A stretch of 64,000 nt of DNA from Lachnospiraceae bacterium (GTDB lineage Bacteria > Bacillota > Clostridia > Lachnospirales > Lachnospiraceae): positions 1-64,000 of the forward strand of contig SVFC01000008.1 in NCBI GenBank assembly GCA_015057035.1, in the 5' to 3' direction. Both the position numbers and the translations under genes were made by a program. The notes beneath the pieces are model-generated. The model was not told where the DNA came from and did no database searches. It was given only the letters and a program-made list of their open reading frames with translations. Of the stretch, positions 39,221 through 62,317 are shown piece after piece. Position 1 is the stretch's first letter. Each line of letters starts with the position of its first letter.

Positions 39221-41254
39221 TCAGTCCGCTACGCGAATCAACTCCACACAATCTATGGTACCCCAGGCACCAGCCGCTGCCTTAATCTCAATTCCCACTT
39301 TCATCGTTCCGCTATTGCACAAGATGTTCGTGATGGAAGGCTCCTGCCAGTTCATCCATCCAGCCAACGTAAATGTTTGCTCATAACGCACACCATCACT
39401 AATCACATAAATCAAAAGTGTGGCATCATCGCCTGCTGCATCTCCTTGTACCGACAAAGAGAATGCGTACTTTCCTTTTTCTAAAGAAGTGACCGGCTGT
39501 TCCGCCGAGAACTCAACCGGCTGATCGCTCCAAAAATGAAGGCTCTTCGTACCCTCTTTTGCATCCGCCTGTTTCTCCTGATAATCCGTAGTTCCTGCAA
39601 CCAGTTCCGTTATTTTCCACATAGAAGTGTCACTCTCTTCAAAGGAAGGATTCTTCACATAATTCTTCGGTTGCTCTTTGGTCCCCACTCGAACAAAATA
39701 GAATGTTTTTAGGGATTCCAGTGGATATCCTTCTGGACTAAACAATGATGTTGGAATACATCCTGTTGCACCATAATATTTACCTGCGTCATTAGGGTCA
39801 TAGCTTCCTGCATAGGAACTTGCCCAACCTGCGCCATAAAGTTCTCGCTTATTATGCTTCTCAGCCTCGCTGTCTCCTGGCACATCAATCCACGCTGGTT
39901 CCCAGTAAAAGACTCCAATAGCATAATCACCCAGCTCTTTCATTGCATTCACGCAAGCTCGAATTTCATCTGCCTGCCCCTGTACGCTTCGCTCATATTC
40001 ACCAGCTGTAGAAGAAGAATATGCCCAGGAAGTTTCTGCAATCATAACTTTTTTTCCGCTGATATTATGTACCGTTTTTAACTGCTCCTTCAGATTCTCC
40101 AGTGTTCCATGATACTCAGGATAATAGGAAGAAGCAAAGACATCATAGTCCACGCCATAGTTTTGTAAACAATTTGCATAATATGAATATCTCTTCTTCT
40201 CAGGGTTTGTGTAATGTACGCCAATTAAGATGCCCTTATTTGTATCTCGTACGGCTTTTGCCGCAGATTTCATCAGTCTGTATATATTGGCTTCCGTCTT
40301 TTCACCGCAAATGCCACCCGTGGTTTCATTACCCACCTGCACCATTCCAATTTGTATTCCAGCATTCTGAATTGCTTTAATGCTTTCTACGGTGTAGTTA
40401 TAGATGGCAGTTTCTTTTTCCTCGAGGCTCATATTTTCCCATGCCTTTGGCGCCTGCTGCTTGGCAGGGTCTGCCCAGAAGTCCGAATAGTGAAAATCCA
40501 CCATCAGTCCCATTCCATACTCTGCTGCACGTTTTCCCAAAGCAATTGCCGTATCTACGGTACAGTTTCCACCACCATATCCTTTTCCCTCAGCATCAAA
40601 AGGATCATTCCATACACGCACTCGAATATAATTCACACCTGCTTGACTGAGCGTTTTAAATATATCCTGTGCCTTACCATCAAACCCATAAAACACTCTG
40701 CCGCTTGCTTCGAGAGAAAGCAGGCTTGAAATATCCACGCCCATCATAAAATCATCTGACAAACCTTCGACTTGGGATATCGTCAGAGACGTAGTTATTT
40801 TCTCCGCTTCTTCTGAACCGTTGTCTTCCGTGCCTGTATCTGTTGGTGGTTGCTCCTGCGAACCATCTTCCTCTGATCCTGTATCCACTGGAGTTTTGTT
40901 TTCCGAGCCATCTTCCTCCGAGCCGGTATCCACTGGAGTTTTACCTTCCGAGCCATCTTCCTCTGATCCTGTATCTACTGAAGAATCGCTGTCAGACTCC
41001 GTTTCTGTTGGTTCGCCTGGTTCTGTTGATTCGCTTGGTTCTGTTGGTTCGCCTGATTCTGTTGGTTCATCTGTTTCTGTCTGTATCTCAGATGTTCCAT
41101 CTTCTACACTACTCCCCTCCTGAGAATTGCTCTCCACACTATCTGTAGTGCTATTATCCTCCGTTATGCTTTCTCCACCAGTTGCTGAGCCACAACCATA
41201 TAAAGAAAATATCATAACAATGATTAATAGAATCGAAATCGCTTTTCTCTTCAC
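39221..41254 (-). CDS. GH53 endo-beta-1,4-galactanase lipoprotein with C-terminal binding-like domain
   Basis: A 677-residue lipoprotein (signal KRKAISILLIIVMIFSLYGC; lipidated Cys 21). A very acidic linker with tandem units of the type PVDTGSEEDGSE occupies about 25-150. The GH53 barrel follows (MGVDISSLLSLEASG, VNYIRVRVWNDPFD, MVDFHYSDFWADPAKQ); the acid/base Glu is in VQVGNET (about 307) and the nucleophile Glu in MIAETSWAY (about 406). The last about 140 residues (NPSFEESDTSMWKI onward) look like a beta-sandwich carbohydrate-binding module. It should cut type I arabinogalactan, the galactan side chains of pectin, at the cell surface. The start is GTG at 41254 after GGGGG; no ATG fits the signal peptide. 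It is divergent from the GH1 gene. Confidence 0.9.
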   Translation of the reverse strand: MKRKAISILLIIVMIFSLYGCGSATGGESITEDNSTTDSVESNSQEGSSVEDGTSEIQTETDEPTESGEPTEPSESTEPGEPTETESDSDSSVDTGSEEDGSEGKTPVDTGSEEDGSENKTPVDTGSEEDGSQEQPPTDTGTEDNGSEEAEKITTSLTISQVEGLSDDFMMGVDISSLLSLEASGRVFYGFDGKAQDIFKTLSQAGVNYIRVRVWNDPFDAEGKGYGGGNCTVDTAIALGKRAAEYGMGLMVDFHYSDFWADPAKQQAPKAWENMSLEEKETAIYNYTVESIKAIQNAGIQIGMVQVGNETTGGICGEKTEANIYRLMKSAAKAVRDTNKGILIGVHYTNPEKKRYSYYANCLQNYGVDYDVFASSYYPEYHGTLENLKEQLKTVHNISGKKVMIAETSWAYSSSTAGEYERSVQGQADEIRACVNAMKELGDYAIGVFYWEPAWIDVPGDSEAEKHNKRELYGAGWASSYAGSYDPNDAGKYYGATGCIPTSLFSPEGYPLESLKTFYFVRVGTKEQPKNYVKNPSFEESDTSMWKITELVAGTTDYQEKQADAKEGTKSLHFWSDQPVEFSAEQPVTSLEKGKYAFSLSVQGDAAGDDATLLIYVISDGVRYEQTFTLAGWMNWQEPSITNILCNSGTMKVGIEIKAAAGAWGTIDCVELIRVAD
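40830..40990. repeat. Short tandem repeats encoding the acidic linker of the galactanase
   Basis: Three near-identical units of about 48 bases encode TGSEED-type segments of the linker, followed by shorter EPTE/GEPTE-type repeats to about 41100. They are in-frame coding repeats, not a CRISPR or regulatory array. Confidence 0.75.
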
Positions 41255-41338
41255 AGTCTCTCGTCCCCCGTAATTTCTATTATTTTGTGTTCCAATAACA
41301 CTCCATCTTTCTCTTATAATAACACACATCTAGACATC

Positions 41339-42734: not shown

Positions 42735-42791
42735 AAAAACACGTGACTCTAAGAAGCGGCTTGTACCGAAGTCTTATTGTCACGTGTTTTT
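42735..42791 (+). terminator. Terminator of the GH1 gene
   Basis: AAAAACACGTGAC (42735-42747) pairs with GTCACGTGTTTTT (42779-42791), a 13-bp stem with a 31-base loop, ending in TTTTT. Confidence 0.7.
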
Positions 42792-42855
42792 CATATCCTC
42801 TACTTTTTAGTTTCTTTGGGATATTTCTTCGATTCTTTCAATTTCTTTTTTATGC

Positions 42856-42965
42856 ATATGGTATCGCAAACCGTGTCTACGCTTTTCACCGCACTCCACC
42901 TTCCCCTTGGTTATTGTATGGATATGGTATCACAAATCGTGTCTTACTTTTTCGCCGCACTCCAC
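42856..42965. repeat. Pair of imperfect direct repeats of about 44 bp
   Basis: The unit ATATGGTATCGCAAACCGTG... (42856-42899) recurs as ATATGGTATCACAAATCGTG... (42922-42965), both ending in GCACTCCAC, with a spacing of 66 bases. They lie in the 243-base gap between the GH1 gene and the putative immunity gene and touch the immunity gene's 3' end. Function unknown. Confidence 0.7.
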
Positions 42966-42969
42966 TATG

Positions 42970-43389
42970 CTATGCGAGCTTAACAGTTATACTTTCACAG
43001 AAACCAAAATGCTCATAAAGGCGGTGTTCAATAACAGCATTATTGATTTTTCGTTTGGATGATGCACTTTCAAACAACACCCAAGAAAGCCTCCCTTGCT
43101 TAATTAATGTTCTACCGTAAGCATTATCTAGTTCTTTCTCTATTTTTAAGAAAGAGGCTATCAGATCGTCTTTTTTCTCTGATTGATTTAAAATACGCAC
43201 ATCAACATAAAAAGCATTTCCGTTTTCCGTGTAAATAGCTATATTGCATTTACAATCAGTAAATATGTTAACATCCGAGAAATGTACTACATTATCCGCT
43301 GAATATTTGTGTGGTGATGTAACACAACACACTCGCGAAAAAAAGCTGTCAATAGATTTAAAATATATTTTTTCTTTAAAGATTTCCAT
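42970..43389 (-). CDS. Putative immunity protein for the RHS-TNT toxin
   Basis: A 139-residue soluble protein of no family I recognise (MEIFKEKIYFKSIDSFFSRV at the start, FYVDVRILNQ, SWVLFESASSKRKINNAVIE). It starts 14 bases after the stop of the RHS toxin gene on the same strand, the place where a cognate immunity gene stands in polymorphic toxin loci. Lack of a signal peptide fits a cytoplasmic NADase inhibitor. I chose the ATG at 43389, eight bases after AGAGG; an ATG six bases earlier is too close to that site. The immunity role is an inference from position only. Confidence 0.55.
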   Translation of the reverse strand: MEIFKEKIYFKSIDSFFSRVCCVTSPHKYSADNVVHFSDVNIFTDCKCNIAIYTENGNAFYVDVRILNQSEKKDDLIASFLKIEKELDNAYGRTLIKQGRLSWVLFESASSKRKINNAVIEHRLYEHFGFCESITVKLA

Positions 43390-43403
43390 TATCATTTCCT
43401 CTT

Positions 43404-46400
43404 TTATAATAACTCCAAAAAGCCAAATTGGATCAATCGTTTTACTGACATCCAAGAAAAGTACTGGAAACCACCACCATTAGCTACAATACCCGTGCTG
43501 ACTTTAAAACCCTTAAGTACACGATAAGAGTTTAATTGTAAGGAGTTAGATGCAGGTAAATCCAACAAAGAGTAATGTGTCCCCGGATCAGTTAAATATC
43601 TACCGAACTGACTGCCATAACGATCCAATTTCATTCCCGGTTCAAGATTCATCGACCCCTCCGTTCCTGGCATAGCTCCTTTCATTGTACATGTATTGCT
43701 TAAATAACTTCCGCAAATAGCAGTTCCAACAATTGCAACTGTTTCGGTTGCACCTGAGTAAACATCATACGCTGTTTGGTTACCATTAAACACCGTATCT
43801 CGCACAAAATTATCTCCAGTAACAGCCTGTTGTATATCTGCTACACCATTTACTGTGGTAAGTACTCCTGCAGTGATTGTAACTGCCGCAGTTGCAATCA
43901 TAGCAACAGGAGCTCCAGCAACACATACTGCTACACCTGCAGCAACGGCTGCTATACCTGTTACAATTCTACCAACGCCTTTTGCAAATCCCCATAAATC
44001 GAATGTACCATAGGGATCATATCCCATAACAGGATTGTTTCCACAGTAAGCAAATAGATTGTAACTGGTAAGTCCTCCCGTACCTAAATATGCAATATCA
44101 TCCGCATTAATAAACCGACCAATCTCAGGATCGTAATAACGGCTGGATACATAGTAGAGTCCCGTCTCTACATCATAATAATACCCTCTGTATCGGAACG
44201 GATTATACACCGCCTCTGTATCTTCTCCACCATTGTGATAGGTGGTAGTGACATCGCCCCACGCATCATAGATATAGGATACCAACAAGGTGCCGTTGGA
44301 ACTGTATACCGCAACAATGTCTCCCTGCAGATTTCTCTCAAACCAGTAGGATTCATAGGTGCCTGCAGCATCTGACACCTCTCGGTACTGCATTCCAATA
44401 GGACTTCCGTCTGCATCATACAGATATACTAGTAGCTGATTGCCCCATTCCTCAGCGATAATCTGGCTTCCATTCAGCCGATAGGTATGTTCTACCCCAT
44501 TCACAGTCTTGCTGACACGAATACCTTCATCATTGTATTCAAACTCCAGCGTATAGTAATTACCTGAAGCCATGGACAGCCTTCTGCCATTCTCCCATCT
44601 AAAACGCCAGTGAGTACCATTATAATAATTTATTGGATTTCCGATTTCATCATAAGTAAAGGTTGTTCCATCAAAACTGGTTAGTTTGTCTCCCCAGTTC
44701 TCATCATTATATTCGTAAGTATATGTATAAAGCGCATTAGAAGGCGTCACACCTGCAGCAGTTATGTTATATTCACTCTTGGTTAGGATATTTCCTGCAT
44801 TATCATAGGTGTAGACATAGGTTCTACCCAACAGTGTGTTATCCTCTCGAAGCAACTGTCCTAAATCATCATAAACATAGCGGAATTCCTGACCATTACT
44901 CAGTTTTATTTTCGTAATGTTTCCATTATCATCATAGGTATATGTATAGGTTAATGCCGCATATTCATTGACCTTACTGGTATACGTATGTACGAGCGAA
45001 GAGGTATTGACCGGTTCATTTGAGTTGCTGTTATCATTTGGTTGAGCTACAAACTCATAGTCCACTGTATTGATAAACTGCTTATCCGAAGTCCCCTGCA
45101 TAAAGTTGTATACCTTACCAGACATTCTCTTAAAAATGTCATAGGTATAGGTTACCGCACCATTCGCATAAGGCGTTAGTACCCAGTACAGGCCTACGGA
45201 ATCATCATCATTATACTTGAACTGGTAACCAAACCGACTGTTGCTATCGTTGTCTACTCCAAAATATCCCGTTATATAGTCAAAATTATACTGAACATTT
45301 TCCAGACGCGACTTGTCATCATAATAAAACTTCGCCCCAAAGGTGTTAACCAGTTTTTCCGTATCATACTCCACATGCCCAATTAGACGCTTGTTGGCAT
45401 CGTAACTGTAGAGAATGCTTTTTCCTGTTAACAGGTTGTCGAACTGATATAACTGACCATAAGCATTATATTTATAGGAATAGGCCTGTTTTTCTGTACT
45501 GCCTTCAATATACCATACTTCAGAGATATTATCAAACGTATCATACACATATCTTACTGAGAAGCCGTTGGCATAATGAAGGGTATTCAGTTTTCCATTA
45601 TGGCTGTTATACTCGTAACTTACAATCTCGTTACTGCCTACAGATATGGAATCCGTTTTACCAAAGTTGTCGTAACGGAAGTTATAGGTGGTAGCTTCTG
45701 TAGTAATACTCTGTAGCAGGTTTGCAGAATTATAGGTATAATCCACCTTTTCTCCACTTGTATCCGCCTCATACGTTGCCTCTTCCGTATAAATAGCAGG
45801 CATAACAGAAGTAATGTTACCAGCAGCATCATAGGTATAACAGGTTCCTGTGTCAGTATTCGTATTGATTACTGCCAAAAGCCTGCCATTAACAGAATCA
45901 TAGAAATACTTTGTCATAACTCCTAAATTGCTGATTTCTGCCAGTAACACACCAAAGTTTCTAGAAAGAGAATCTGTTTCGTATACATAATGCTGCGTGA
46001 TTCTCTCTGTAGAAATTGAATAATTCGTACCATTATAGGTTGTCACACTGGTTAATTGTCCATAATTATCGTAAACGTATTTTGTTTGGGTTTGTGGCAC
46101 CGTTGTAATCAGTTCTCCAGCGTTTATATAAGCATATGGATAGGATAACCTCGAACCAACCGAACTTGTAAATGTGGAATATGTTTCGGTCTCAACATTA
46201 TTGGCTACAGTGTAAGTATAATCATAGAGTTCTCCACGGTTATTTGCCATACGAATCAAGTTGTTGTTTTCATCATACACATAGACCTCTTCGTAATAAC
46301 CGTTTCTCTGCACCTGCACTAAGCCATTATCATAATATTCTGTAGTTACAGTAGATTCGTCAATCACCTGCGTCAGATAGATATTATCGAAATAGCCTAC

Positions 46401-49400
46401 ACCAGGATTGCCCTTATAGATAGCGCTAACATCTATCGTCTTTACCAATTTTTCATCTGTTGTAATACTCTTCGATACAAACTGCCACTCATTACTGTAA
46501 TTTTGGAAGGCAAGTTCAAATCTATCGGTACTATCATCTGAATATGTCACCTCAACCAGAAGTCCGAATGTGCCAGAAGGTACCTGATAAGTTCCTTTTC
46601 CCATTCCGGATACAACAAAGGTTTTTGCGGTGGTATCTGTCTGTGTAGCTGAAGCGGTATAAATCCTCTGGGTTGCAGTACTATCCGACGTTAGTTTAAT
46701 TACATTGCCTAACAGTTCATTCTCATATACTACGGTACCCGTGGTACTCCAGTAATTGCTATATTTATACTGTGTAGTTCCCTTATGGGAATCCTCAAAG
46801 TTCCCGAATTCCACCATACTGTAGCCACTCTGACCGATGTTCTCCTCCAGCATCACATTATCAACAAGAACATACGTGTCGCCTTCATTTCCACCCACTT
46901 TGTTAGTTACAATAATGTCTATCACAAACTGCTCACCACCTGTAGAATTGCAGTTTGATGCTTTAAAATTCAGACTGACATTTACGAAACCATCTGTAGC
47001 ATTGTCTTCATTTACTGCAATTAGCTTATAGGCAGTATTATCTGTTCCATCCTGAGATGTTGCTTTAATTCCTATCGTTACATTCTCTGCCTCATAGGAA
47101 CAAATATCCATAGACAACGTATAGTCTCCTTCCGGAAGAAAAACCGTCTGCCGTAGGAAATCTGAAGTATTAGTAACTACATCCACACGTGCACTATAGT
47201 TACCATGAGTATCTCTGGTTGTCTCATTAACCGCTTCCACAAAAGAGATATTTGTAGTGTTTGACCATCCGGAAGCATTAGATGTGCCTAAACGTTTCTC
47301 AAATCCACCGTTGAAAATGTAATTACTTGTTGCACCGCCCACAGCTGTAGAGTTTTTGATATTGTTTTTTACATTCTCTTGTGTTTCATATTCTCCGCTG
47401 GTAGCACCATAAATCGTGGTTCTTTCAACATCAGTAGAATAACAACTGGTTACACGTCCCTGCTTATCAAAGATATAACAGGTGATGATATCATCATCCG
47501 TTCCATGCACATCATCACTGCCACTTGTACGAACCTCTGTATAATCCGTGCGATAGGTATAGGTTATCTTCTGCCCATCTTCGGAATCCTTTGCATATTC
47601 CGTTACAGAAGTAACTCGCTCACCTGTATAGGTATACTCCACAGAGTATCCAGAAGTTTCATCATGAGCAGCTATCAGTTTCCCGCTACTATTATATTCA
47701 TAAGTAACCGTGGTAACTATCTGGTTCTCATTGATAAACTCTATTTTTTTCAGATATCCATAATAGTCACCTGAAACATCGCTTGTCGTATAGTAATGTG
47801 GTGAATAATATAACTTCACCTTTGGTGCGTTATCATAACCATATATCTGTACCTGTTTTAACTGGTCATATGCATTATATGTATAATTCTCAAAACTTAT
47901 CGCAGAACGATCCTTTGGTATTAACCATACTTGCGCAATTTTTCCATCACTCGACTGGAGGTACCTTAATACATTTCCATTTCTATCCGTTTTCGTATGA
48001 AGCACTGCTCCCACACCGATATCACTCGTACTAACGTTGGTCTCATAAAATGTACGAACATTATGGTTCATATCCGTAATCTCATATATCCCGTCACCAA
48101 TCTCTAAAGTTAACAGTAATCCATCGGTATCTTTATATGTAGTGGTACTAGTTCCATCCGGGAAAAAGGTATGCTCTGTACCATCGGCATCCGTCCAGAT
48201 ATAATAAGTTATTTCTTCCCCGTCGGCATTATAATACGTATCTGGAACCAAATATTCGTTGACGTTCATCTTAAATCCATAGCCTATTCTTGGAACGATA
48301 TTTGGAACTTTTGCCACAGCGGATGTAGCATATTTTCCCGCATATGCCTGGTTATATACCAGAGTAGTACCATGGCCAAACAATTGCTCATTTGATGCAA
48401 GTATTCCAATCGTAAAGATCAATTCGCCGCTGGTATTGTTAATATATCCTGTGCCGGCAGCACCCACATTCTGTGTAGAATAGGACCAATAGTCTTCCAG
48501 CCCATCCATTTTAGTATAGTTAATCTGTAATGGTGCTGCTGTTTTACTTCCGAGAACAAAACGGAATACTAAGTCATTTATACCAGAAGGTTTTGTTACT
48601 GGTTTAATAGCAAAACCATAATTCTTCTCTGGGTTGTCGTACCACTCAAGAACATTCTGTGTGATATCCCATTCATACTCCCATATCGCAGAGTCTGAAT
48701 CCCCAATATTCTTTGCACCCTTCTGATAGTCATAAACAAGAGTTGATATCTGTCCTGCTACTCCTTTTTCATATTCGTTATAGCAGAAGGTCTCTGGGTC
48801 CCAGTCACTTAGAATCGGATATATGCCAAGATCAAGACTATAAGAAGTATTTGGGTAGCATTCATTCCATTCATGTCCGGTTACTATAAAACTAGCGCTG
48901 GTGATAGTCGCATTCTCTGGTAATACAGGCAATTCTTCTAATTTGATGAAGGTTGTGCTCCATGTACCAACCCATAGATGGTCTGTATGCTCCAAAGAAT
49001 ACGGATCCGTCCTTTGGATACTAGTTCCTGCGATGGAATCTTTGCTTAGCGTAACGACAGAAGGGTCAATATACACTGGGAATACACGTTCCGCATCATT
49101 GATCCATTCTGCATCAGCCGTAACTGTAAGGGCATACTTTCCGTTTCCAATTCTTGTAAGTGCATATGTTACTCCACTAGAGCTCATTCCACTGGCATCA
49201 TACATAATTCCTGCTGGAATGCGGTAAACGGTTTGATTTGTATTTGGATCATAGATGTTTACGGAACCATCTTCCTCCAAAGCGGCTTCCAGGTTATTCA
49301 ATTTGATGGTAAATGTATACTGATAGCTGTCCTTTTTCTCCTTAACAATGATGTTCTCTTTTACCTTTAAATCCTCAAGGACATACTCTAAGTCCACACC

Positions 49401-49979
49401 ATCCAGAATATCTGCATACAGAATCTTTGAAGATAAGTTATCCAGAGCCATTAACTTTTGAAGGTCTGTGGCTGTTTCGTCTGGCTCTTCGCTAGTATTT
49501 GTCACGCAGCCTGTGGTTTTCTTGATGGCATTGTCCAAAGACATCGTAATCTTTCGGTTGCCATCATGCAGCGTAAATAATCCGCCGTTTCCGGTAATTT
49601 TCTTGGCGAACTTGATTCTTGCATCGCTGGTAGAAAATTCACTTCCGGATTCGGACAGATGATTATTGATATCCTGCCAATTTCCATCTGCGTCTTGAAC
49701 ATGAACTGGAGTGGTATACTGCACTGCCACATAGCTTCCATCTTCAAGCCGGAAATGTTTTACTCTTTCCTCGCGAAGCTCTGTGACCTCGTATACTTCA
49801 CTCGTTGTGTCCGTGTTTGTGTTGGTTGTGGTTGTAACTCCTTCCTCATTCTGCAGTAGTTCCGGATCCGCCCCCTGGCCCGTCTGTGCTTGCACATGAC
49901 TTGCCCAGGATGTGAATAGCATAGTTACTACTAACATCATGGAAATGAGTTTCATCCATGGTTTGCTTCTTGTTAGCAT
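43404..49979 (-). CDS. Giant secreted RHS/YD-repeat protein with C-terminal TNT (NAD+ glycohydrolase-like) toxin domain
   Basis: A 2191-residue WapA-like protein. Order of parts: signal peptide (1-32, ending ASHVQAQ); an N-terminal beta region; a DNRLRE-type module (about 316-470); RHS/YD repeats with YTYD, YDxxG and YEYN motifs (about 500-1960), interrupted by two carbohydrate-binding-like inserts (about 890-1030 and 1056-1200); the RHS core end NPVMGYDPYGT (about 1980-1990); a hydrophobic Ala/Val/Gly-rich segment (about 1998-2035); and a C-terminal domain (about 2110-2191). That domain reads GMKLDRYGSQFGRYLTDPGT, SYRVLKGFKV and NGGGFQYF, matching the tuberculosis necrotizing toxin fold, with the conserved Arg (2120) and Gln (2172). 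I chose the ATG at 49979 after AAAGGA. The likely role is contact-dependent killing by NAD+ depletion. Confidence 0.82.
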   Translation of the reverse strand: MLTRSKPWMKLISMMLVVTMLFTSWASHVQAQTGQGADPELLQNEEGVTTTTNTNTDTTSEVYEVTELREERVKHFRLEDGSYVAVQYTTPVHVQDADGNWQDINNHLSESGSEFSTSDARIKFAKKITGNGGLFTLHDGNRKITMSLDNAIKKTTGCVTNTSEEPDETATDLQKLMALDNLSSKILYADILDGVDLEYVLEDLKVKENIIVKEKKDSYQYTFTIKLNNLEAALEEDGSVNIYDPNTNQTVYRIPAGIMYDASGMSSSGVTYALTRIGNGKYALTVTADAEWINDAERVFPVYIDPSVVTLSKDSIAGTSIQRTDPYSLEHTDHLWVGTWSTTFIKLEELPVLPENATITSASFIVTGHEWNECYPNTSYSLDLGIYPILSDWDPETFCYNEYEKGVAGQISTLVYDYQKGAKNIGDSDSAIWEYEWDITQNVLEWYDNPEKNYGFAIKPVTKPSGINDLVFRFVLGSKTAAPLQINYTKMDGLEDYWSYSTQNVGAAGTGYINNTSGELIFTIGILASNEQLFGHGTTLVYNQAYAGKYATSAVAKVPNIVPRIGYGFKMNVNEYLVPDTYYNADGEEITYYIWTDADGTEHTFFPDGTSTTTYKDTDGLLLTLEIGDGIYEITDMNHNVRTFYETNVSTSDIGVGAVLHTKTDRNGNVLRYLQSSDGKIAQVWLIPKDRSAISFENYTYNAYDQLKQVQIYGYDNAPKVKLYYSPHYYTTSDVSGDYYGYLKKIEFINENQIVTTVTYEYNSSGKLIAAHDETSGYSVEYTYTGERVTSVTEYAKDSEDGQKITYTYRTDYTEVRTSGSDDVHGTDDDIITCYIFDKQGRVTSCYSTDVERTTIYGATSGEYETQENVKNNIKNSTAVGGATSNYIFNGGFEKRLGTSNASGWSNTTNISFVEAVNETTRDTHGNYSARVDVVTNTSDFLRQTVFLPEGDYTLSMDICSYEAENVTIGIKATSQDGTDNTAYKLIAVNEDNATDGFVNVSLNFKASNCNSTGGEQFVIDIIVTNKVGGNEGDTYVLVDNVMLEENIGQSGYSMVEFGNFEDSHKGTTQYKYSNYWSTTGTVVYENELLGNVIKLTSDSTATQRIYTASATQTDTTAKTFVVSGMGKGTYQVPSGTFGLLVEVTYSDDSTDRFELAFQNYSNEWQFVSKSITTDEKLVKTIDVSAIYKGNPGVGYFDNIYLTQVIDESTVTTEYYDNGLVQVQRNGYYEEVYVYDENNNLIRMANNRGELYDYTYTVANNVETETYSTFTSSVGSRLSYPYAYINAGELITTVPQTQTKYVYDNYGQLTSVTTYNGTNYSISTERITQHYVYETDSLSRNFGVLLAEISNLGVMTKYFYDSVNGRLLAVINTNTDTGTCYTYDAAGNITSVMPAIYTEEATYEADTSGEKVDYTYNSANLLQSITTEATTYNFRYDNFGKTDSISVGSNEIVSYEYNSHNGKLNTLHYANGFSVRYVYDTFDNISEVWYIEGSTEKQAYSYKYNAYGQLYQFDNLLTGKSILYSYDANKRLIGHVEYDTEKLVNTFGAKFYYDDKSRLENVQYNFDYITGYFGVDNDSNSRFGYQFKYNDDDSVGLYWVLTPYANGAVTYTYDIFKRMSGKVYNFMQGTSDKQFINTVDYEFVAQPNDNSNSNEPVNTSSLVHTYTSKVNEYAALTYTYTYDDNGNITKIKLSNGQEFRYVYDDLGQLLREDNTLLGRTYVYTYDNAGNILTKSEYNITAAGVTPSNALYTYTYEYNDENWGDKLTSFDGTTFTYDEIGNPINYYNGTHWRFRWENGRRLSMASGNYYTLEFEYNDEGIRVSKTVNGVEHTYRLNGSQIIAEEWGNQLLVYLYDADGSPIGMQYREVSDAAGTYESYWFERNLQGDIVAVYSSNGTLLVSYIYDAWGDVTTTYHNGGEDTEAVYNPFRYRGYYYDVETGLYYVSSRYYDPEIGRFINADDIAYLGTGGLTSYNLFAYCGNNPVMGYDPYGTFDLWGFAKGVGRIVTGIAAVAAGVAVCVAGAPVAMIATAAVTITAGVLTTVNGVADIQQAVTGDNFVRDTVFNGNQTAYDVYSGATETVAIVGTAICGSYLSNTCTMKGAMPGTEGSMNLEPGMKLDRYGSQFGRYLTDPGTHYSLLDLPASNSLQLNSYRVLKGFKVSTGIVANGGGFQYFSWMSVKRLIQFGFLELL

Positions 49980-50058: not shown

Positions 50059-50095
50059 ATAGAAAATGCGTGACATTTTGTCACGCATTTTCTAT
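50059..50095 (-). terminator. Hairpin between the two-repeat protein gene and the RHS gene
   Basis: AGAAAATGCGTGACA (50061-50075) pairs with TGTCACGCATTTTCT (50079-50093), a perfect 15-bp stem. The T run on the minus strand is short (TTTTCTATAG), so read-through into the RHS gene is possible. The stem includes the stop codon of the upstream gene. Confidence 0.55.
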
Positions 50096-50637
50096 AAGAC
50101 TCTCACTTCAAAGGCTGTTGTCTGCGGTGGAATGCTAGCTGTCATAAAGTTGGCATGTCGCACTCTTACACGCATTCCTGCTCTCAAGTCTGAAAATTGA
50201 ATTTGTCTTCCACTTCGACCAATAATTCCTGCATTATCCGCCAGATTAAATCTTACAATGCTGGACAAGTTTCCATCGCTAATGGTGGTAAAATTCCGAT
50301 TCCTGTGGTTAAAATCCAAAATTCTACCTGTGGTAAACTCATCCGCCTGGGAACCTCTTACAACTCGAATCACATATGCATTGGTCTGTGGTGGAATACT
50401 GCGAGTCATAGCAGAAGATGCGGTAGCATCTATAATCATGCCTCTGTTCAATGCCATAGGTGATATCCTTCGACCATTCTGACTCAATATTGTAGTACGG
50501 GGTCCCACCACCAGCACTACTGTCTGCTCGTTCCATCGATTATTTCCCAGTTCCCGATAACGCACTGTCACAAAAGTCGAGCCTCGATCTGTGGTTATAT
50601 TTTGTATTCTTCCGTTGTTTATGTTAATAACGGGCAT
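50092..50637 (-). CDS. Two-repeat beta-rich protein of unknown function
   Basis: A 181-residue, all-beta protein made of two repeats of about 90 residues. Each has an NGRRISP/SGRQIQF turn, a GMI/GMR strand and an IPPQT-x-A-x-x-VRV ending (SIPPQTNAYVIRV in the first, SIPPQTTAFEVRV in the second). No signal peptide, membrane helix or catalytic motif is seen. It lies directly upstream of the giant RHS toxin gene on the same strand (112 bases from its start codon), so a helper role is possible but unsupported. The family is not recognised. Confidence 0.6.
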   Translation of the reverse strand: MPVININNGRIQNITTDRGSTFVTVRYRELGNNRWNEQTVVLVVGPRTTILSQNGRRISPMALNRGMIIDATASSAMTRSIPPQTNAYVIRVVRGSQADEFTTGRILDFNHRNRNFTTISDGNLSSIVRFNLADNAGIIGRSGRQIQFSDLRAGMRVRVRHANFMTASIPPQTTAFEVRVL

Positions 50638-55228: not shown

Positions 55229-58200
55229 TTATTCTTCTGTCGCAAATTTCTTTTTTGCAAAGAAGCCAGCTGTTACAAATGCTGCACCAAGAAGAGTAAT
55301 CATAAAGATGATTCCTGTATCCATTAAATCGCCTGTTTCATTAACGATTGGTGCTTTCCACTCAGCATTATAAGAAGTCTTTTCCCACTGAAGCACTGTA
55401 AGATCTAACTTTCCAGCACCTGCATAGTATGGAACAATACCTGTTACTTCTTTTGCATCGTACAATACGTAATCTGCATATGGAAGACTTGCGATGAATG
55501 CATCTGCATCTGTGATGAGAATATCATCATCTGCACTTGTCTTGTTCTTAACTACGAGATCTACATACTTGCCATTCATAGAATACAAGCTGTTAATTGC
55601 ATTGATATATCCTGCTGGACTTGAGCCATTACCAGAGTTAAGTGCATCCTGGATGCCTCTGATGAAGCAGTTCTCAAGGAGTACCTGCGCTCCACATGTA
55701 GAAGCTGCACCATTGCTTACAAACTTAGAAGCAAGTGGTGAAGTTCCAAGAGATAATCTTGCCTTTAAGATGTCCTTAGAATCCATTACACAGTTATATA
55801 CATGTGCGTTACCATAACGAAGTCTTGGTAAACGGTCCATAGAATTCAAGTAGTAGTTATTTGCCAGAGTCACGCGGATACCAGCTGCATTTACAGAAGT
55901 ATCGTCCTGTCCGAAGAGGTGAGTCTTCTTCTGGAAGTATGCATATTTGTAAACTAATTCTTCTGACATTCCACCAGCTTTTAATTCTTTGTAGTATGCA
56001 TAGTCGTCTTCGTTCGCTTTGATTTCATCCATCATTACGTTGAAGAATGTATCATCTTCACTACCTGGTAAGAATTCACACCAAGAGATTGTGATATGTG
56101 ACATTGGATTTGGATTCTTAATATCAATGATTCCATCGTATGCTTTGTAGAATGTACAATGGTCAATCCAGATTCCATCACTACCAGAGTCGATAGTCAT
56201 GTAATCCCAGTCATTTCTATCATAATCGCCATGTGTATCTTCGTCCCACTCCCAGAGCTCATCAAACTTAATATTACGGATGATGATGTTTTCTGCCTTC
56301 TTCATAGTAATATTTGCATGTTTGATTGAAGCACCGTTTAATGAGAAGATTGTTAAGTTAGAGATCTCTTCTAAGTTCAGCTGTGATACACCTGATTTAA
56401 TCAATGTTGGATGTGTCAATGCCTGATTCTTGTATGCTTTAATTACTTTGCTATAGCTATCAAAGTTTTCGATTTCATAGCATCCTAAGTTAATGTCTGC
56501 AGCTAATTCAATAACTGTATTCTGACGGCCAGTCTTAGCTGCAAGAATTGCATCTAAGAACTCTTCTGCAGTATCAACTTTATAGTAATTAGCATTTGTT
56601 TCAAGTAAGAGTCCGCCACCAGTTACACCAAATGCATCTGCGTAACCTTCCATGTCGTACATCTTAAGTCCTGTGTCATCGCCATCTGTAAAGAGATATT
56701 CATATTCTACAGGTTCTGCTGTATCATATTTTTCTCTTTCTGTTTCAACACTTCCTACATAGCTTCCTGAAGAGATGTTAGACATTACTGTTGCTACATC
56801 CCATCCAAGATATGTTGCTGATGTCATCTTTTCTGCCATTTCTGGGCTAATCTGACGTCTGTCGCTGTTGATTAAGTAACCTGGTCCATAGGTTCCATAT
56901 TCGAAGAATCTAGCATCTTCTGCCATATTTCCACTCATATCTCCATATGGATCATACTTGTTAATGATTTCGCCCATATAACAGTTAATCCAAGTAATGT
57001 ATGCATTAGCGCCCCATGGTCTAGCAAGGAGATAGCTTGCGCCTGTACATCCTTCTTCTGCTGTGATTACACAGTTGTTGAAGGTTAAACCATATGTTGC
57101 GTTTGCATCTGTCTTAGGGGCACATACATAACCTGAGTTCTTAGTAGGTTCATATACGAAGATGATTTCACAATCGTTGAAGTAAGACTGTGCTTTGTCA
57201 CCAGAGTAAATGAAGTCTACCAAACCTTTGATTTCGCACTTGTAGTAATACTGTTTTCCGCTATGCATATAAAGAGTATCCTGTACACCTTCGAAACCAA
57301 CGTTTACAAATACAGAATTGTCCGCTTCAACACGGATTGCATCTGCAGATTTGTTGCTCTTGCCATCATTTGTTGAATATACATAATCGTTTGCAAAGGA
57401 GATGTTTTCAGCGGTAAAGCCTGTAGCACCTGACTGAATGTAGGTTGCACATCTCTTATCCATATCTCCACCAGCTTCATAAGCTGCTCCAAGAGAGCCT
57501 GGATAGAAGTGGATTAATGTATTTTCTCTGTCTTCACCAATAAGGGTGATGTTCTTAGTATTAACTACTAATCTTTCTTCGTAACTTCCTGCCATAACGA
57601 GGATGACTGTTCTGTTCGTTTCGTCTGCCAATGTGCTTGTTGCACCCGCTGCGTCAACTGCTGCCTGAATGGTCTTGTAGGTTGGAATACCATTTACGAG
57701 TTCGCCATCTGTGCCTGTGTAAGCAGCATCAACAACTACATCATAATTGGTTAAGTATACGAAGTTAAATGTCTGTCTTGTCGTATTGCCATCTACATCC
57801 TTGAAGAAGATATTTACATCATTTCTTCCTGGCTGGACTGCAATTTCTAATGCAAATGTATCTCTTGCATCAAGCACCTTAACTGCTGCCTGAGTCGTAC
57901 CTACAAACGCTGTTAAAGTTCCCTTACCATATACAACACCTTCAATCACAACTTTGTTCTTGAATACTGTATCGTAAGATTTCTTTGTAATAAAGATGCC
58001 AGTTTCTTCTTTTTCCTGAGCATATTCGCCTTCACGTTCAGATGCTACTACTTTCCATTCTGTTACTGAATATGGGCTTTCGTTTTCATCTGTTTCGCTA
58101 ACAGCCTTTACATAATAGTAATATGGTACATCTACTTTTACATCTTTATCTGTAAATGTATTTGTTGTAAGACGTTCTGCTACAACAACAGCGCCTTCTG

Positions 58201-61200
58201 GTCCCTGGTCACTTGTGTATCTGTATACTACATAGTATTCAGCGCCATTAATCTTCTGCCATGTAACAACAATCTGTTTGTCTTTTTCTTCTAATTCTAC
58301 TACTGGTTTTTCTAAAGCACCTTTTACATAGATTGTGCTCTCCATAGTAGCATAATTATTTCTTTCTCCACCGAGAGATTCTTTGCCAAGCTGTCCACAT
58401 ACACGGAACTTATAGTTACCACCATCGCCTGCTGGAAGCACGTAGCGATATGTAAATCCTGTCACATCCTGTGTCAGTTCTACCCATTCTCCGCCATCTT
58501 TCTGCACTTCAACTACGTAGGTTCCATCGTATTCTGGAACTGTACCTGTCCAAGAAATATCGATAAATTCTCTTGTTTCAGAGCCAACCGCTGTAACGTT
58601 AGATGCTACAGGAGCGGTTCCTTCTGGATGATAACAAGCGTTCTGATCATAGTATACTGTCTTGCCATCGCCACTTGTGTAAATCATATTAGTGATTGTT
58701 GCGTCAACGTTTGCAAGCATAAATCCGAAGTAGAATTCCGTTGGTGTTGCACCATTTTCTGCTACTGGATTCTGTGACCAGCTTCTTGTCTGGGTTACAC
58801 CGTCATCATCAACGAATGTAATGGTTACTGTAGGTCTTGTATCAGCCATAGTAATTACATAGTGCACAAGACGATTTAATCCGATATTCTCTTCTGCTGG
58901 TGAGCCGGCACCAACGAAGCCTGTTGCACTCTTAGAGTAGAGACCACGAACCTTGATTCCGCCTCTTAAGCCCAGTGAATATACATGATCATTGGTAAAT
59001 ACACCTGCTAAGAAACCACCGCTATTGCTTGTGTCTCTTGAGTCTGTAATAATTACGTCAAATTCTAACTTGTTATCATCTGATGTCATTGGGAACAGAT
59101 AATATCCAAGGTTAGAAACATCCTTAAATGCTTCTCCATACTTACCACCAGCCTGGCTAAGTGTTAACTTCTGTCCGATTGGCTGTACGGTTAAGCTGTC
59201 TTTGTTATTTCCTTTTGGAATATCATTTGTATCTGTGTCTGTTACAGCATCGCTATCTGTGTTTGGTACAGATGGCATTACTGGCTGCTCTTCTACTTCA
59301 ACGTCCTTTGCAGGATATGTAACTGCAATACCAGAGATATATGCTGTGCCCGTTGCAACAATATCAATTGTGCCTGCTTCACCAGTATATTCAACTGTAG
59401 TTGAAGATTCTGTTGTGCTGGCAGCTACACCGTTAATAGTATAAAGTGCATACTGCGCCTGACCAGCATGTGGTGTAACTGTAATAGTACATGGTCCTAA
59501 TACAGGAACCTTGAGAATGGTTCCACTATTTACTGCTGCACAGCAATTATCGCCATTAGAAGCAAGTTTGCCGTTGGTTGCATCCACATAAATTCCATGG
59601 AACCATCCAGTTGTTCCTTCAATCTTGTTTGGAACTACTGCAAATGACCAAGAAGTCTTTTCTGTAAATGTAATTGCATGATTTACCGGAGCACCTGCTA
59701 CTGTTAATGTTCCATCTGTTTTAATAGTGTAAGCCATCTGTTCGAAGTCTCCACCAATAGTAACTGTGTAAACACCGTCGCGTAACTGGATTGCTTCACC
59801 AGCTTCGAATTCATACATTGCACCATCTGCATGAGTAAATGTATAAACGAGTTCTTTTCCTGATAAATCAGGTGTTGAACCTAAACTAATAATAACTTTG
59901 TAGAATACTTTCTTGTTAAATTCAAGATTAAGAGTGGTATCTGCGTGATAAGTAATTGCTCCTGCTGGAGTAATCATATCGTACTCATCAACACCAATAC
60001 CTTCTACTTTGTATGTTGTTCCCTGCTCTAATACTACAGAGTAGGTATGGTTTGTTGTATTAATTGTTACTTCTGGAACTGTATAGATAGAAGCTGTTGT
60101 TGCTGTAAACTTAAGACCTGTTAAAAGTCCTGCATCTTCTAATCCTGTGTTGTATGTTCCTGATAATGTATAGGTCTTTGGCGCGTAAGTAATAGAATTT
60201 GTTGCAACAACTGTGTTCTTACCAACAACTCTAAACTGCCAAGTTCCAAATCCCAAATCTTTTGTACCAAGATTTACTGCCAATGATCCTTCTGTCTTGT
60301 TACCAGCAACTTTGCCTAATTTAATCCATTTTTCACCATCTTTTGATGCTTCAATAGAATAATTTGCAGTTTCATCACCGGCTGTACCTGTAAAGGAAAC
60401 ATTTACAGTTGCACCTGTTGCATCAGTTTCATCCTGTGCTACTGTTACATCTTTTACAGTTGGGTATTTTACTCCGCCCTTCTGTGCTACTACAATCTTG
60501 AAAATGTAGTTGCTGCTTGAGCTACTTCCTAAATAGTAGGTACCAGCTGCATCTAATGTAAAGGTTGAAATGTACGCTGTATTTTTGATTGATCCAACAC
60601 TTGTAATCGCAGCCTGATTGCCTTCCGCATCAATAACCTTAATCTCGCGGCCATCACCACCAGATACCCAATATACAGTTACATCTGCTTCTGCTACTGT
60701 TGTAAATTTAATTGCAGCTTTTGTTTTTGATAAACTTCCACCTAATGAAAGTCTCTTTGTAGATACATATCCATCTTCAAAAGACTGTGCCTTTGCTTCG
60801 ATTGCAGAGTTACTATGACTGATTAAGGTAAAGTCGCCACATACAACTTCCTCTCCTTCTGCAAGGTCGCCTTTTGCTTTTGATTCCATATCTCCAATAT
60901 CGAGCGTTAATGTTGGAGCCTGTGGAACTTCTTCTTTTACTACAATTTTAAAAATATAGTTACTGCTTGAACTACTTCCTAAATAGTATGTTCCTGCTGC
61001 TTCTAAAGTAAGTGTTGAGATGTATGCTGTGTTTTTGATTGATCCAACACTTGTAATTGCAGCCTGATCACCCGCTTCATTAATAATCTTGATTTCACGG
61101 CCATCTCCGCCAGACATCCAATATACAACTACTTCGGATGCGTTTGCTGTTGTAAATTTAATAGCCGCTTTAGTTTTTGATAATGATCCGCCTAAAGAAA

Positions 61201-62317
61201 GTCTATTGGTTGATACATATCCATCTTCAAAAGTAACTTTCTTTGCTTCAATAGCTGAATTACTATGACTAACTAATGTGAAGTCACCGTTTTCAACTAA
61301 CTGGCCTTCAGTAAGTCCGCCCTTTGCCACGGTGTCCATATCGCCAACTTCGAATACTTTTTCAACGACTGAAGGAGCTTTTACTTCTGTCTGCACCTTA
61401 ACATAATGAATATATCCGCTACCGGAAATTTCGATAGTAACTGTAGTTGCTTCTTTTGCAGTATAAGTAAATTCTACATCCGTACCATCCGTTGCAGCTC
61501 CACCTAAGGACTGACTTTCCACAACCGTTGTACTTCCTACCTTTAATACTGCACTTGCTGAGCCGTACTGGCATGCTCCTACAACAATTGTTGTATCACC
61601 AGCTGGTACATTGATTGCAATCTTAGATCCAGTTGCTACATCCGCACCATGTGCATCTCCACGATGTTTGAACGTTCCGGATACTGCTACCGCTGCATTG
61701 CTTCCTGCATATAATTCACAGTCTGCACTTGTCAAATCCCAAGACAATACTTTGTTTGCTGGAATTGTTACAAGTTCCTTATCAGCGCTTTCGGCTTTTG
61801 CCTTTATGTAATGAACAAAGCCGCTTCCAGAAATCTCTAAATCAACAGTAGTAGCTTCTGCTGCCGTATACTCAAAGACTACTTCTTCTGTATCTGCTGA
61901 CAGACCGCCGAGCGCCTTTGTTTCAGATACTGCTGTACCTCCCACTTTGAGAGTACCGCTTGCTGAACCATACTGGCACGCTCCTACGGTAATAACGACT
62001 TTTCCTGCCGGTACATTGATGGAAAATACGGTTCCGCCTGGAACACTTGCGCCATGCTGAGCACCATTCAGTGTAATCGCACCTGTGATTGTTAAGATTC
62101 CATCATCAGTGGTATAACTTCCATCAGTGTCAGCATACGCACCAAAGCCTGATTCTCTCATATCCCAGGTTACTTCTGCGCCATCTAATACAAGCGCATT
62201 TTGTCCTGCCCAAATCGGTTCTGGCATAACGCCTACCAATGACATCATCATTGCAAGTGTCATAAACCAAGCCATTATACGAGTTCCGACTTTTCTTGTT
62301 TTTGCTTTTTTAAGCAT
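55229..62317 (-). CDS. Giant cell-surface pectinase: repeated binding-like modules, pectin methylesterase (CE8) and pectate lyase (PL1)
   Basis: A 2362-residue secreted protein. Order: signal peptide (1-38); a pair of related beta modules (about 45-165 and 190-315; GACQYGSAS blocks); a second pair of about 150-residue modules (about 318-612; GDM and GSLSKTKAAIKFTT blocks); Ig-like and Fn3-like modules; a third copy of the first type (about 900-1010); a CE8 pectin methylesterase (about 1525-1870: GVQDTLYMH, GLVDFIYSGDKAQ, YLLARPWG); and a PL1 pectate lyase (about 1930-2280: WIDHCTFYKAYDGIIDI, RLPRLRYGN). The tail has NETGD-LMDTG, a hydrophobic helix and KKK, a wall-sorting or membrane anchor. 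The esterase demethylates pectin so the linked lyase can cut it. The gene is single, with its own terminator. Confidence 0.9.
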   Translation of the reverse strand: MLKKAKTRKVGTRIMAWFMTLAMMMSLVGVMPEPIWAGQNALVLDGAEVTWDMRESGFGAYADTDGSYTTDDGILTITGAITLNGAQHGASVPGGTVFSINVPAGKVVITVGACQYGSASGTLKVGGTAVSETKALGGLSADTEEVVFEYTAAEATTVDLEISGSGFVHYIKAKAESADKELVTIPANKVLSWDLTSADCELYAGSNAAVAVSGTFKHRGDAHGADVATGSKIAINVPAGDTTIVVGACQYGSASAVLKVGSTTVVESQSLGGAATDGTDVEFTYTAKEATTVTIEISGSGYIHYVKVQTEVKAPSVVEKVFEVGDMDTVAKGGLTEGQLVENGDFTLVSHSNSAIEAKKVTFEDGYVSTNRLSLGGSLSKTKAAIKFTTANASEVVVYWMSGGDGREIKIINEAGDQAAITSVGSIKNTAYISTLTLEAAGTYYLGSSSSSNYIFKIVVKEEVPQAPTLTLDIGDMESKAKGDLAEGEEVVCGDFTLISHSNSAIEAKAQSFEDGYVSTKRLSLGGSLSKTKAAIKFTTVAEADVTVYWVSGGDGREIKVIDAEGNQAAITSVGSIKNTAYISTFTLDAAGTYYLGSSSSSNYIFKIVVAQKGGVKYPTVKDVTVAQDETDATGATVNVSFTGTAGDETANYSIEASKDGEKWIKLGKVAGNKTEGSLAVNLGTKDLGFGTWQFRVVGKNTVVATNSITYAPKTYTLSGTYNTGLEDAGLLTGLKFTATTASIYTVPEVTINTTNHTYSVVLEQGTTYKVEGIGVDEYDMITPAGAITYHADTTLNLEFNKKVFYKVIISLGSTPDLSGKELVYTFTHADGAMYEFEAGEAIQLRDGVYTVTIGGDFEQMAYTIKTDGTLTVAGAPVNHAITFTEKTSWSFAVVPNKIEGTTGWFHGIYVDATNGKLASNGDNCCAAVNSGTILKVPVLGPCTITVTPHAGQAQYALYTINGVAASTTESSTTVEYTGEAGTIDIVATGTAYISGIAVTYPAKDVEVEEQPVMPSVPNTDSDAVTDTDTNDIPKGNNKDSLTVQPIGQKLTLSQAGGKYGEAFKDVSNLGYYLFPMTSDDNKLEFDVIITDSRDTSNSGGFLAGVFTNDHVYSLGLRGGIKVRGLYSKSATGFVGAGSPAEENIGLNRLVHYVITMADTRPTVTITFVDDDGVTQTRSWSQNPVAENGATPTEFYFGFMLANVDATITNMIYTSGDGKTVYYDQNACYHPEGTAPVASNVTAVGSETREFIDISWTGTVPEYDGTYVVEVQKDGGEWVELTQDVTGFTYRYVLPAGDGGNYKFRVCGQLGKESLGGERNNYATMESTIYVKGALEKPVVELEEKDKQIVVTWQKINGAEYYVVYRYTSDQGPEGAVVVAERLTTNTFTDKDVKVDVPYYYYVKAVSETDENESPYSVTEWKVVASEREGEYAQEKEETGIFITKKSYDTVFKNKVVIEGVVYGKGTLTAFVGTTQAAVKVLDARDTFALEIAVQPGRNDVNIFFKDVDGNTTRQTFNFVYLTNYDVVVDAAYTGTDGELVNGIPTYKTIQAAVDAAGATSTLADETNRTVILVMAGSYEERLVVNTKNITLIGEDRENTLIHFYPGSLGAAYEAGGDMDKRCATYIQSGATGFTAENISFANDYVYSTNDGKSNKSADAIRVEADNSVFVNVGFEGVQDTLYMHSGKQYYYKCEIKGLVDFIYSGDKAQSYFNDCEIIFVYEPTKNSGYVCAPKTDANATYGLTFNNCVITAEEGCTGASYLLARPWGANAYITWINCYMGEIINKYDPYGDMSGNMAEDARFFEYGTYGPGYLINSDRRQISPEMAEKMTSATYLGWDVATVMSNISSGSYVGSVETEREKYDTAEPVEYEYLFTDGDDTGLKMYDMEGYADAFGVTGGGLLLETNANYYKVDTAEEFLDAILAAKTGRQNTVIELAADINLGCYEIENFDSYSKVIKAYKNQALTHPTLIKSGVSQLNLEEISNLTIFSLNGASIKHANITMKKAENIIIRNIKFDELWEWDEDTHGDYDRNDWDYMTIDSGSDGIWIDHCTFYKAYDGIIDIKNPNPMSHITISWCEFLPGSEDDTFFNVMMDEIKANEDDYAYYKELKAGGMSEELVYKYAYFQKKTHLFGQDDTSVNAAGIRVTLANNYYLNSMDRLPRLRYGNAHVYNCVMDSKDILKARLSLGTSPLASKFVSNGAASTCGAQVLLENCFIRGIQDALNSGNGSSPAGYINAINSLYSMNGKYVDLVVKNKTSADDDILITDADAFIASLPYADYVLYDAKEVTGIVPYYAGAGKLDLTVLQWEKTSYNAEWKAPIVNETGDLMDTGIIFMITLLGAAFVTAGFFAKKKFATEE
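60480..61370. repeat. Tandem coding repeat of about 450 bp in the pectinase gene
   Basis: The block coding GDM...GSLSKTKAAIKFTT...GTYYLGSSSSSNYIFKIVV occurs twice with a period of 450 bases (for example GATACATATCCATCTTCAAA at about 60762 and 61212). High DNA identity indicates recent duplication of one module. Confidence 0.85.

Follow-up and report, generated by a model that had tools for sequence, protein, structure and literature searches.

A 64,000-nucleotide stretch of DNA from a Lachnospiraceae bacterium (positions 1 to 64,000 of contig SVFC01000008.1, assembly GCA_015057035.1; referred to here as the window) carries a gene for a giant RHS protein with a C-terminal domain, or tip, of the TNT family, followed closely by a small gene that we call the neighbour. 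We conclude that this locus probably encodes a Gram-positive, WapA-like RHS polymorphic toxin with an NAD(P)+-hydrolysing TNT tip and a cognate immunity protein of 139 residues, and that tip and immunity gene are exchanged as a cassette. The evidence that can be observed directly consists of the anatomy of the genes, the membership of the tip in its family by sequence, the occurrence of tip and neighbour together on diverged RHS backbones in two different families, an orphan copy of the neighbour, and purifying selection. The positions of the features are listed in Table 1.

The RHS frame is uninterrupted from an ATG at 49979 to a stop at 43404, giving 2191 residues plus stop. Profile searches identified RHS_repeat (Pfam, E 9.4e-18, in seven stretches), Rhs_assc_core (NCBIfam TIGR03696, E 4.3e-19), a DNRLRE domain (E 1.7e-12) and, at the C-terminus, PF14021 (E 1.1e-13; 51.8 bits against a cut-off of 27). 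The Rhs_assc_core match is numbered on P0001, which runs 5 residues ahead of the 2191-residue numbering used here. The N-terminus has a hydropathy peak at residues 11–29 and an AxA-like VQA-QT site, which was recognised by eye and not with a dedicated predictor. The sequence NPVMGYDPYG is found at residue 1982 and includes the sole DPxG of the protein, at residue 1988; beyond it, Kyte-Doolittle windows of 19 residues exceed 1.6 within residues 2001–2043. The tip motifs then follow in order: DRYG at 2119, GRYL at 2126, SYRVLK at 2151 and GGGFQY at 2168. A sequence-only reading of the window had described an RHS giant at this place, with these motifs in this order and a 139-residue gene lying 14 bases downstream. 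The frame is indeed intact, the motif positions were verified, and the neighbour gene occupies 42970–43389 after a gap of 14 bases.

Within the whole genome, the assembly of which is 85% complete, there is one TNT domain match (PF14021, E 3.3e-15, 57.6 bits), and all six of the RHS-repeat matches listed fall in the 43404–49979 gene. Other RHS frames of the genus, read in 11 stretches, have different tips, and TNT motifs were seen by eye in none of them. In two stretches from the same genus (L035 in G397 and L036 in G432), RHS tips share the common start MWPNPIKWVKDKTKKAAKAV; there are two consecutive tips per stretch, and their ends and next genes differ.

The assignment of the tip to the TNT family, which the sequence-only reading had also made, is upheld by the PF14021 score and by a match to AfNADase from Aspergillus fumigatus (E 2e-5), which is the nearest solved structure by sequence. 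Arg 2120, Tyr 2128 and Gln 2172 align with AfNADase R129, F137 and Q194, and mutation of any one of these is reported to have inactivated the enzyme (PMC7955114). The tip therefore has the catalytic Arg and Gln of AfNADase (PDB 6YGE/6YGF/6YGG), with Tyr in place of Phe.

Relatives of the neighbour were sought using exact peptide patterns in 84,980 species genomes, a method that detects close relatives only. Two sure relatives were found: L015, in a water-buffalo gut assembly, and L014, in a sheep colon assembly. The genome of L015 (G877) belongs to a different family from the window but to the same class, Clostridia. In L015 the neighbour stands behind a different giant RHS protein, 14–15 bases after the tip, as in the window. 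Up to residue 1925 the RHS protein of L015 shares 30% identity with that of the window (528/1777 aligned columns; 38% over the last 150 residues), whereas from residue 1925 to the end the figure is 90% (241/267). The match between the DNA sequences starts at the same point as this jump, some 67 residues before the core end, and runs through the tip and the neighbour with 84.9% identity over 1222 columns, where the L015 contig ends. The pair represents a chimera made in the conserved core; exchange of RHS toxins by way of the conserved core has been described in PMC10539506.

In L014, the match to the window is 90% at the nucleotide level over 514 columns, and the neighbour protein is 87% identical. 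Its frame is intact, and of the tip just the final 30 codons (L014:7895-7984) precede it; RHS repeats are present elsewhere in this genome, and a TNT match is absent from it. The neighbour is thus found both as a partner, with a tip in L015, and as an orphan, without one in L014. Tip and neighbour move as one unit, and the genome survey favours the covariation of the tip with the next gene that had been predicted from the sequence (three loci). Relatives of the tip were found in no phages or viral contigs, and on plasmids in a single record, from Agrobacterium larrymoorei (33% identity).

The tip is under strong purifying selection, and the neighbour is also under purifying selection. For the TNT domain, comparison of the window with L015 gave a non-synonymous rate (dN) of 0.050 and a synonymous rate (dS) of 1.13, a ratio of about 0.04 (Fisher p 1e-19); given this strong synonymous excess, the tip is not decaying. 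For the neighbour, dN is 0.096 and dS 0.46 against L015 (Fisher p 8e-8), and 0.062 and 0.34 against L014 (Fisher p 2e-7); the synonymous excess is strong in these two comparisons as well. The branch leading to L014 has 5 synonymous and 7 non-synonymous changes, too few to show selection on the orphan.

The neighbour has an alternative in-frame ATG two codons upstream, which would give a protein of 141 residues. We favour the 139-residue start, because a GAGGA sequence is better spaced for it. The protein had been placed outside known families, and the profile searches agree with this: no match was found in Pfam, NCBIfam, PADLOC or PDB sequences. The window protein reached no Pfam family even at E 10, including Imm35, 36, 60 and 61, and a profile search of the PDB gave two matches only, at E 0.45 and 1.4, which we take to be due to chance. 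The other two members, L014 and L015, each gave one unrelated Pfam family (E 0.08 and 0.2). The neighbour is also distinct from the Imm59-like and Imm63-like genes that accompany other TNT tips: hhalign gave probabilities of 0.1–0.2 for these comparisons, and joined two Imm59-like groups, used as a positive control, at 97.7. No credible relative was found among viral contigs or plasmids, nor in genomes of the family (397 searched) or of the order (392 searched). We therefore describe the neighbour as apparently a new immunity family, which probably protects its producer.

The 397 family genomes contained three weak partial matches besides the window. Two of these were rejected, L003 because it lies within a frame with a ParA-like start and L004 because the frame on the opposite strand looks more like a gene; L005 is the third. 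The single weak match besides the window in the 392 order genomes, L033, is opposite a long open frame and was likewise rejected.

Many of the sampled TNT tips are followed by an Imm59-like or an Imm63-like gene, and the rest have no clear partner or are unclassed; these classes were assigned by eye, and L071 was placed in the Imm63-like set without a test. Pfam identified Imm63 in the partner of L007, just above cut-off, and Imm59 in that of L077, under cut-off. The partner of L013 gave an unrelated family, under cut-off, and those of L012, L067, L068, L081 and L084 gave no match. We note that L086 and L090 (G1202) have two TNT pieces in tandem with an Imm59-like frame after each, an arrangement that resembles stacked tip-immunity modules.

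A possible further member of the neighbour family is found at L073, where an orphan tip 52% identical to that of the window is followed, 16 bases on, by a gene of 150 residues. In a tree of 26 tips, the window, L015 and L073 group together at 92/78, which is under the starred level, and the window belongs to no starred set. The end of the 150-residue protein resembles the end of the neighbour (hhalign E 0.003 over 55 C-terminal columns), with a global shuffle z of 4.9 (0/1000 as high), a local shuffle result of 3/1000 and a two-sequence blastp E of 0.001. On the contrary side, the hhalign probability is 10, and a profile of the three members ranks the L073 gene fourth of 777 frames, at E 0.53; in addition, the three neighbour members were not among the 12 matches listed for a single-sequence search with the L073 gene. 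Kinship between the two is suggestive, not shown.

The loci also contain repeats that may bear on how the cassettes move. Searching with either of two patterns, the genome of the window has only two copies of a 52-nucleotide repeat, both of them behind the neighbour. The first 16 bases of this repeat occur ten times in the genome of L073 (G824), six times exactly and four times with one mismatch; they are absent from three other genomes searched, and a reversed control pattern is absent from all five. In one case in G824, an IS3-type transposase (rve, HTH_21, rve_2) precedes the copy by about 60 bases. At L073 itself, one copy lies where the orphan tip piece starts, and the gene of this tip is followed by another at a distance of some 190 bases. 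The displaced tip and next gene (L073:1462-2212 and about 2398-2450) are thus flanked on both sides by putative IS3-type end repeats, and the piece sits behind the end of an RHS gene that has another tip. In L014 another dispersed repeat is present in nine copies (65–100% alike), two of which bracket the orphan neighbour. The nine copies, four of which have an exact GGGGACGGTTCTGT core, are spread over L014:7096-16274 among plus-strand genes of no known family; eleven plus-strand frames (90–354 residues) come after the neighbour, and none of the ten that were scanned reached a Pfam cut-off. This region may be an array of immunity genes. We suggest that the repeats of the window, L073 and L014 represent insertion-sequence ends or similar relics of cassette movement.

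Several features of the locus are shared with systems that have been described. In Serratia marcescens SJC1036, Rhs1CT1036/RhsI1-1036 (proposed groups Tne3/Tne4) likewise combines an RHS protein and a pfam14021 tip with a small downstream gene that is unrelated to the tuberculosis immunity factor, and orphan immunity copies in other strains and exchange of tip and immunity are described there also (PMC10539506). RHS-TNT tips, unrelated immunity proteins and orphan immunities are therefore already published, on the account given in that paper. The active-site set reported for the Serratia toxin, Arg1401, Phe1417 and Gln1467, corresponds to the three positions kept in the window. The Serratia system differs in being delivered by type VI secretion (PMC10539506), whereas the protein of the window begins with a putative signal peptide; in addition, going by the published description and not by an alignment of sequences, the window tip differs in that Leu replaces the QRXL Arg and five residues are deleted. 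TelB/TipB of Streptococcus intermedius also pairs a TNT-like NADase tip with a cognate immunity protein and is described as acting in contact-dependent antagonism between Gram-positive bacteria; TelB, however, is an LXG protein exported by the Esx (type VII) route, not an RHS protein with a putative signal peptide (PMC5555719). WapA of Bacillus subtilis and Streptococcus suis is similar in its architecture, being described as a Gram-positive RHS protein with a signal peptide (putative in the window), YD repeats, and a variable C-terminal toxin followed by an immunity gene (PMC12704120). It differs in having a DPxG-x18-DPxG pair where the window has one DPxG, and the window protein is without a recognised wall-anchoring domain. 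The terms TNT and NAD are absent from the main text of that paper.

Zhang et al. (2012; PMC3482391) described Ntox40 as a toxin domain with a DRxxG motif, carried by RHS proteins and by other backbones in Firmicutes, fungi and further groups, and listed it with six unrelated immunity families (Imm35, 36, 59, 60, 61 and 63). Ntox40 is presumably PF14021. The window neighbour differs from these partners in matching no Pfam family, immunity families included. What appears new, as far as we have seen, is the Leu-type tip with its shortened loop, the immunity candidate that belongs to no known family, and the spread between families of one class.

A mechanism can be proposed. The giant RHS protein would be exported by the Sec route, its RHS shell bearing the C-terminal tip, and the hydrophobic pre-toxin stretch would aid passage of the tip across the membrane of a neighbouring target cell, inside which the tip would hydrolyse NAD(P)+. 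The 139-residue protein would remain in the cytosol and bind the tip, shielding the producer and its kin. Recombination in the conserved RHS core would swap tip and immunity gene together as a single cassette; the immunity gene could also persist alone.

A number of observations weigh against this interpretation. The sequence-only reading had expected conserved Arg and Gln in the tip; this holds for the DRXG Arg and the Gln, together with the Tyr, but not for the QRXL Arg (TNT R780, AfNADase R148), which is replaced by Leu 2139 both in the window and in L015. Five loop residues ahead of the catalytic Gln are also absent. Both R148 and the full loop are present in AfNADase, in which R148 is described as holding the nicotinamide and pairing with D128 (PMC7955114). 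R780 of tuberculosis TNT is reported to be required for activity and stability, the R780A protein having no detectable activity and being partly unfolded (PMC6398120), and the residues of the Asp-Arg salt bridge are said to be conserved across all TNT proteins (PMC7955114). Furthermore, a [WY]P motif found upstream of the domain in 7/10 of the relatives listed, which would correspond to the Phe-Pro-Pro of tuberculosis TNT, is absent from the window. The predicted structures have very low confidence and lend no support to an ART-type palm fold of the tip or to any immunity fold of the neighbour, with predicted local distance difference test (pLDDT) values of 34.9 for the tip (from a 2-row alignment) and 33.9 for the neighbour (3-row alignment). 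A scan of the 2191 residues found no second DPxG; no wall-anchor domain is among the Pfam and NCBIfam matches and LPxTG and NPxT-type motifs are absent, though an unrecognised anchor is possible. Finally, the joint movement of tip and neighbour is based on three loci only (the window, L015 and L014).

The significance of Leu 2139 can be judged from a census of TNT tips from genomes of the family, class and phylum of the window. The census comprised 29 tips with both the Asp and the Arg columns; it excluded rows lacking these columns and L090, as a copy of L086, and counted L015 together with the window. Both Asp and Arg are present in 19 of the 29 tips and neither in eight, all of which have Leu at the Arg position; Arg alone does not occur, and Asp alone occurs in two, the window and L008 (Fisher value 1e-5, ignoring the relatedness of the rows in this small sample). 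Thus the DRXG Asp is retained in the window tip despite the loss of the QRXL Arg. Among the excluded pieces that reach the QRXL column, there is Leu in L092 and in the second pieces of L089 and L087, and Arg in two overlapping copies of one place. The core residues vary much less: the DRXG Arg is present in 29/30 aligned rows (Lys in one), an aromatic residue in 30/30, and the catalytic Gln in all 26 rows that reach its column, among which the loop is absent only from the window and L015. Since the QRXL Arg is missing from 10/29 tips, it does not define the whole Pfam family on this sample, and with the catalytic Arg, the aromatic residue and the Gln all in place, its absence need not mean that hydrolysis is lost. 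The window tip belongs to the TNT family by its profile and core residues, yet is without one feature that has been called universal; the absence of the QRXL Arg is common to it and to other tips of its phylum. Titles and abstract openings of open-licence papers yielded no report of TNT domains without this Arg.

These results also bear on other explanations of the tip. A TNT-family tip with changed chemistry, for example slow hydrolysis, a preference for NADP or ADP-ribosyl transfer to a target, seems unlikely but is worth keeping in mind: Leu 2139 and the loop deletion are at positions that in AfNADase contact the nicotinamide and flank the catalytic Gln (PMC7955114), and the tip is otherwise well conserved with L015; the three core residues are nevertheless in place, and the QRXL Arg is missing from 10/29 sampled tips. 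That the tip has decayed and is inactive, the locus being a relic and the neighbour a leftover, we regard as decidedly improbable. The lost salt-bridge Arg, the five residues missing near the active site and the relic-like repeats behind the immunity gene would suit such decay; the dN/dS of the TNT domain, the intact frame of 2191 codons and the occurrence of this variant in genomes from two separate families do not.

It is improbable too that the 139-residue gene is a passenger in the exchanged block and not an immunity protein. It has no homology to known immunity families, and the prediction of its fold has very low confidence; against this, it follows the tip at the same close spacing in both intact loci and is transferred with it, its frame has been kept intact in L014 without the tip, and a gene of similar size stands 16 bases behind the related L073 tip. 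An action of the RHS protein on an animal host, not on bacteria, is very improbable. Tuberculosis TNT is reported to act on host macrophages (PMC6398120), and both sure relatives of the neighbour come from animal guts, but competition between bacteria is a better fit to the exchange of tip and neighbour, to the presence of the neighbour as an orphan where the genome has no TNT match, and to the variety of other tips on RHS genes of the genus.

Table 1. Features of the toxin locus, in window coordinates.
Feature	Position	Strand	Basis
Terminator-like inverted repeat between convergent genes	42735..42791	.	20-nt arms, 90% complementary
52-nt repeat, copy 2, 83% identical to copy 1	42848..42899	-	Repeat comparison
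52-nt repeat, copy 1, right behind the immunity stop; resembles the left end of an IS3-family element	42914..42965	-	Insertion-sequence interpretation drawn from G824
Segment in common with orphan locus L014 (TNT end and immunity gene)	42968..43481	-	Nucleotide alignment
Candidate cognate immunity gene, 139 residues	42970..43389	-	14-base gap, joint movement with tip, dN/dS 0.18-0.21
Exchanged block in common with L015 (core end from residue 1925, tip, immunity gene)	42986..44206	-	Nucleotide alignment
RHS polymorphic toxin gene	43404..49979	-	RHS_repeat, Rhs_assc_core, DNRLRE and TNT profiles
TNT-family toxin domain, residues about 2112-2189	43413..43646	-	PF14021 profile and AfNADase sequence match
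Codon of Leu 2139, position of the QRXL Arg in most sampled TNT domains	43563..43565	-	AfNADase alignment, 30-row alignment
Hydrophobic Ala/Gly/Val-rich pre-toxin stretch	43851..43979	-	Kyte-Doolittle
RHS core end, residues about 1904-1991, terminating in NPVMGYDPYG	44007..44270	-	TIGR03696
Putative signal peptide, residues about 1-31	49887..49979	-	Hydropathy peak and AxA-like site

The genes around the locus include, immediately upstream of the RHS gene (50092-50637, minus strand), one for a protein of 181 residues with a DUF3221 match (E 1.3e-6). A second giant of 2362 residues (55229-62317, minus strand) has no RHS matches; it matches pectinesterase (E 1.1e-36) and pectate lyase (E 3.6e-16), and has a hydrophobic segment close to its C-terminus. 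At 39221-41329, also on the minus strand, there is a lipoprotein-like GH53 enzyme (E 4.6e-103) with a low-complexity linker of PVDTGSEEDGS-like repeat units.

Taken further, and tentatively, Clostridia might contain a branch of Leu-type TNT toxins without the Asp-Arg salt bridge, in which the window would be a step, with Asp kept, Arg lost and the loop shortened; one sub-branch (the window, L015, L014 and perhaps a diverged L073) would be guarded by a new immunity family, and the cassettes would have spread between families partly inside insertion-sequence ends. The salt bridge has been called universal (PMC7955114) and, for tuberculosis TNT, essential for stability (PMC6398120), yet purifying selection on the window variant is strong, and a comparison of natural variants without the salt bridge would reveal its role. 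The neighbour represents an additional candidate type of immunity for TNT. Several unrelated types are already known for this toxin family, and TNT is therefore well suited to the question of how many different blocks against a single enzyme are possible. For the ecology of the gut, the finding records one toxin-immunity cassette shared by two families of the same class, on RHS backbones that differ from each other, and a third genome in which the immunity gene is an orphan.

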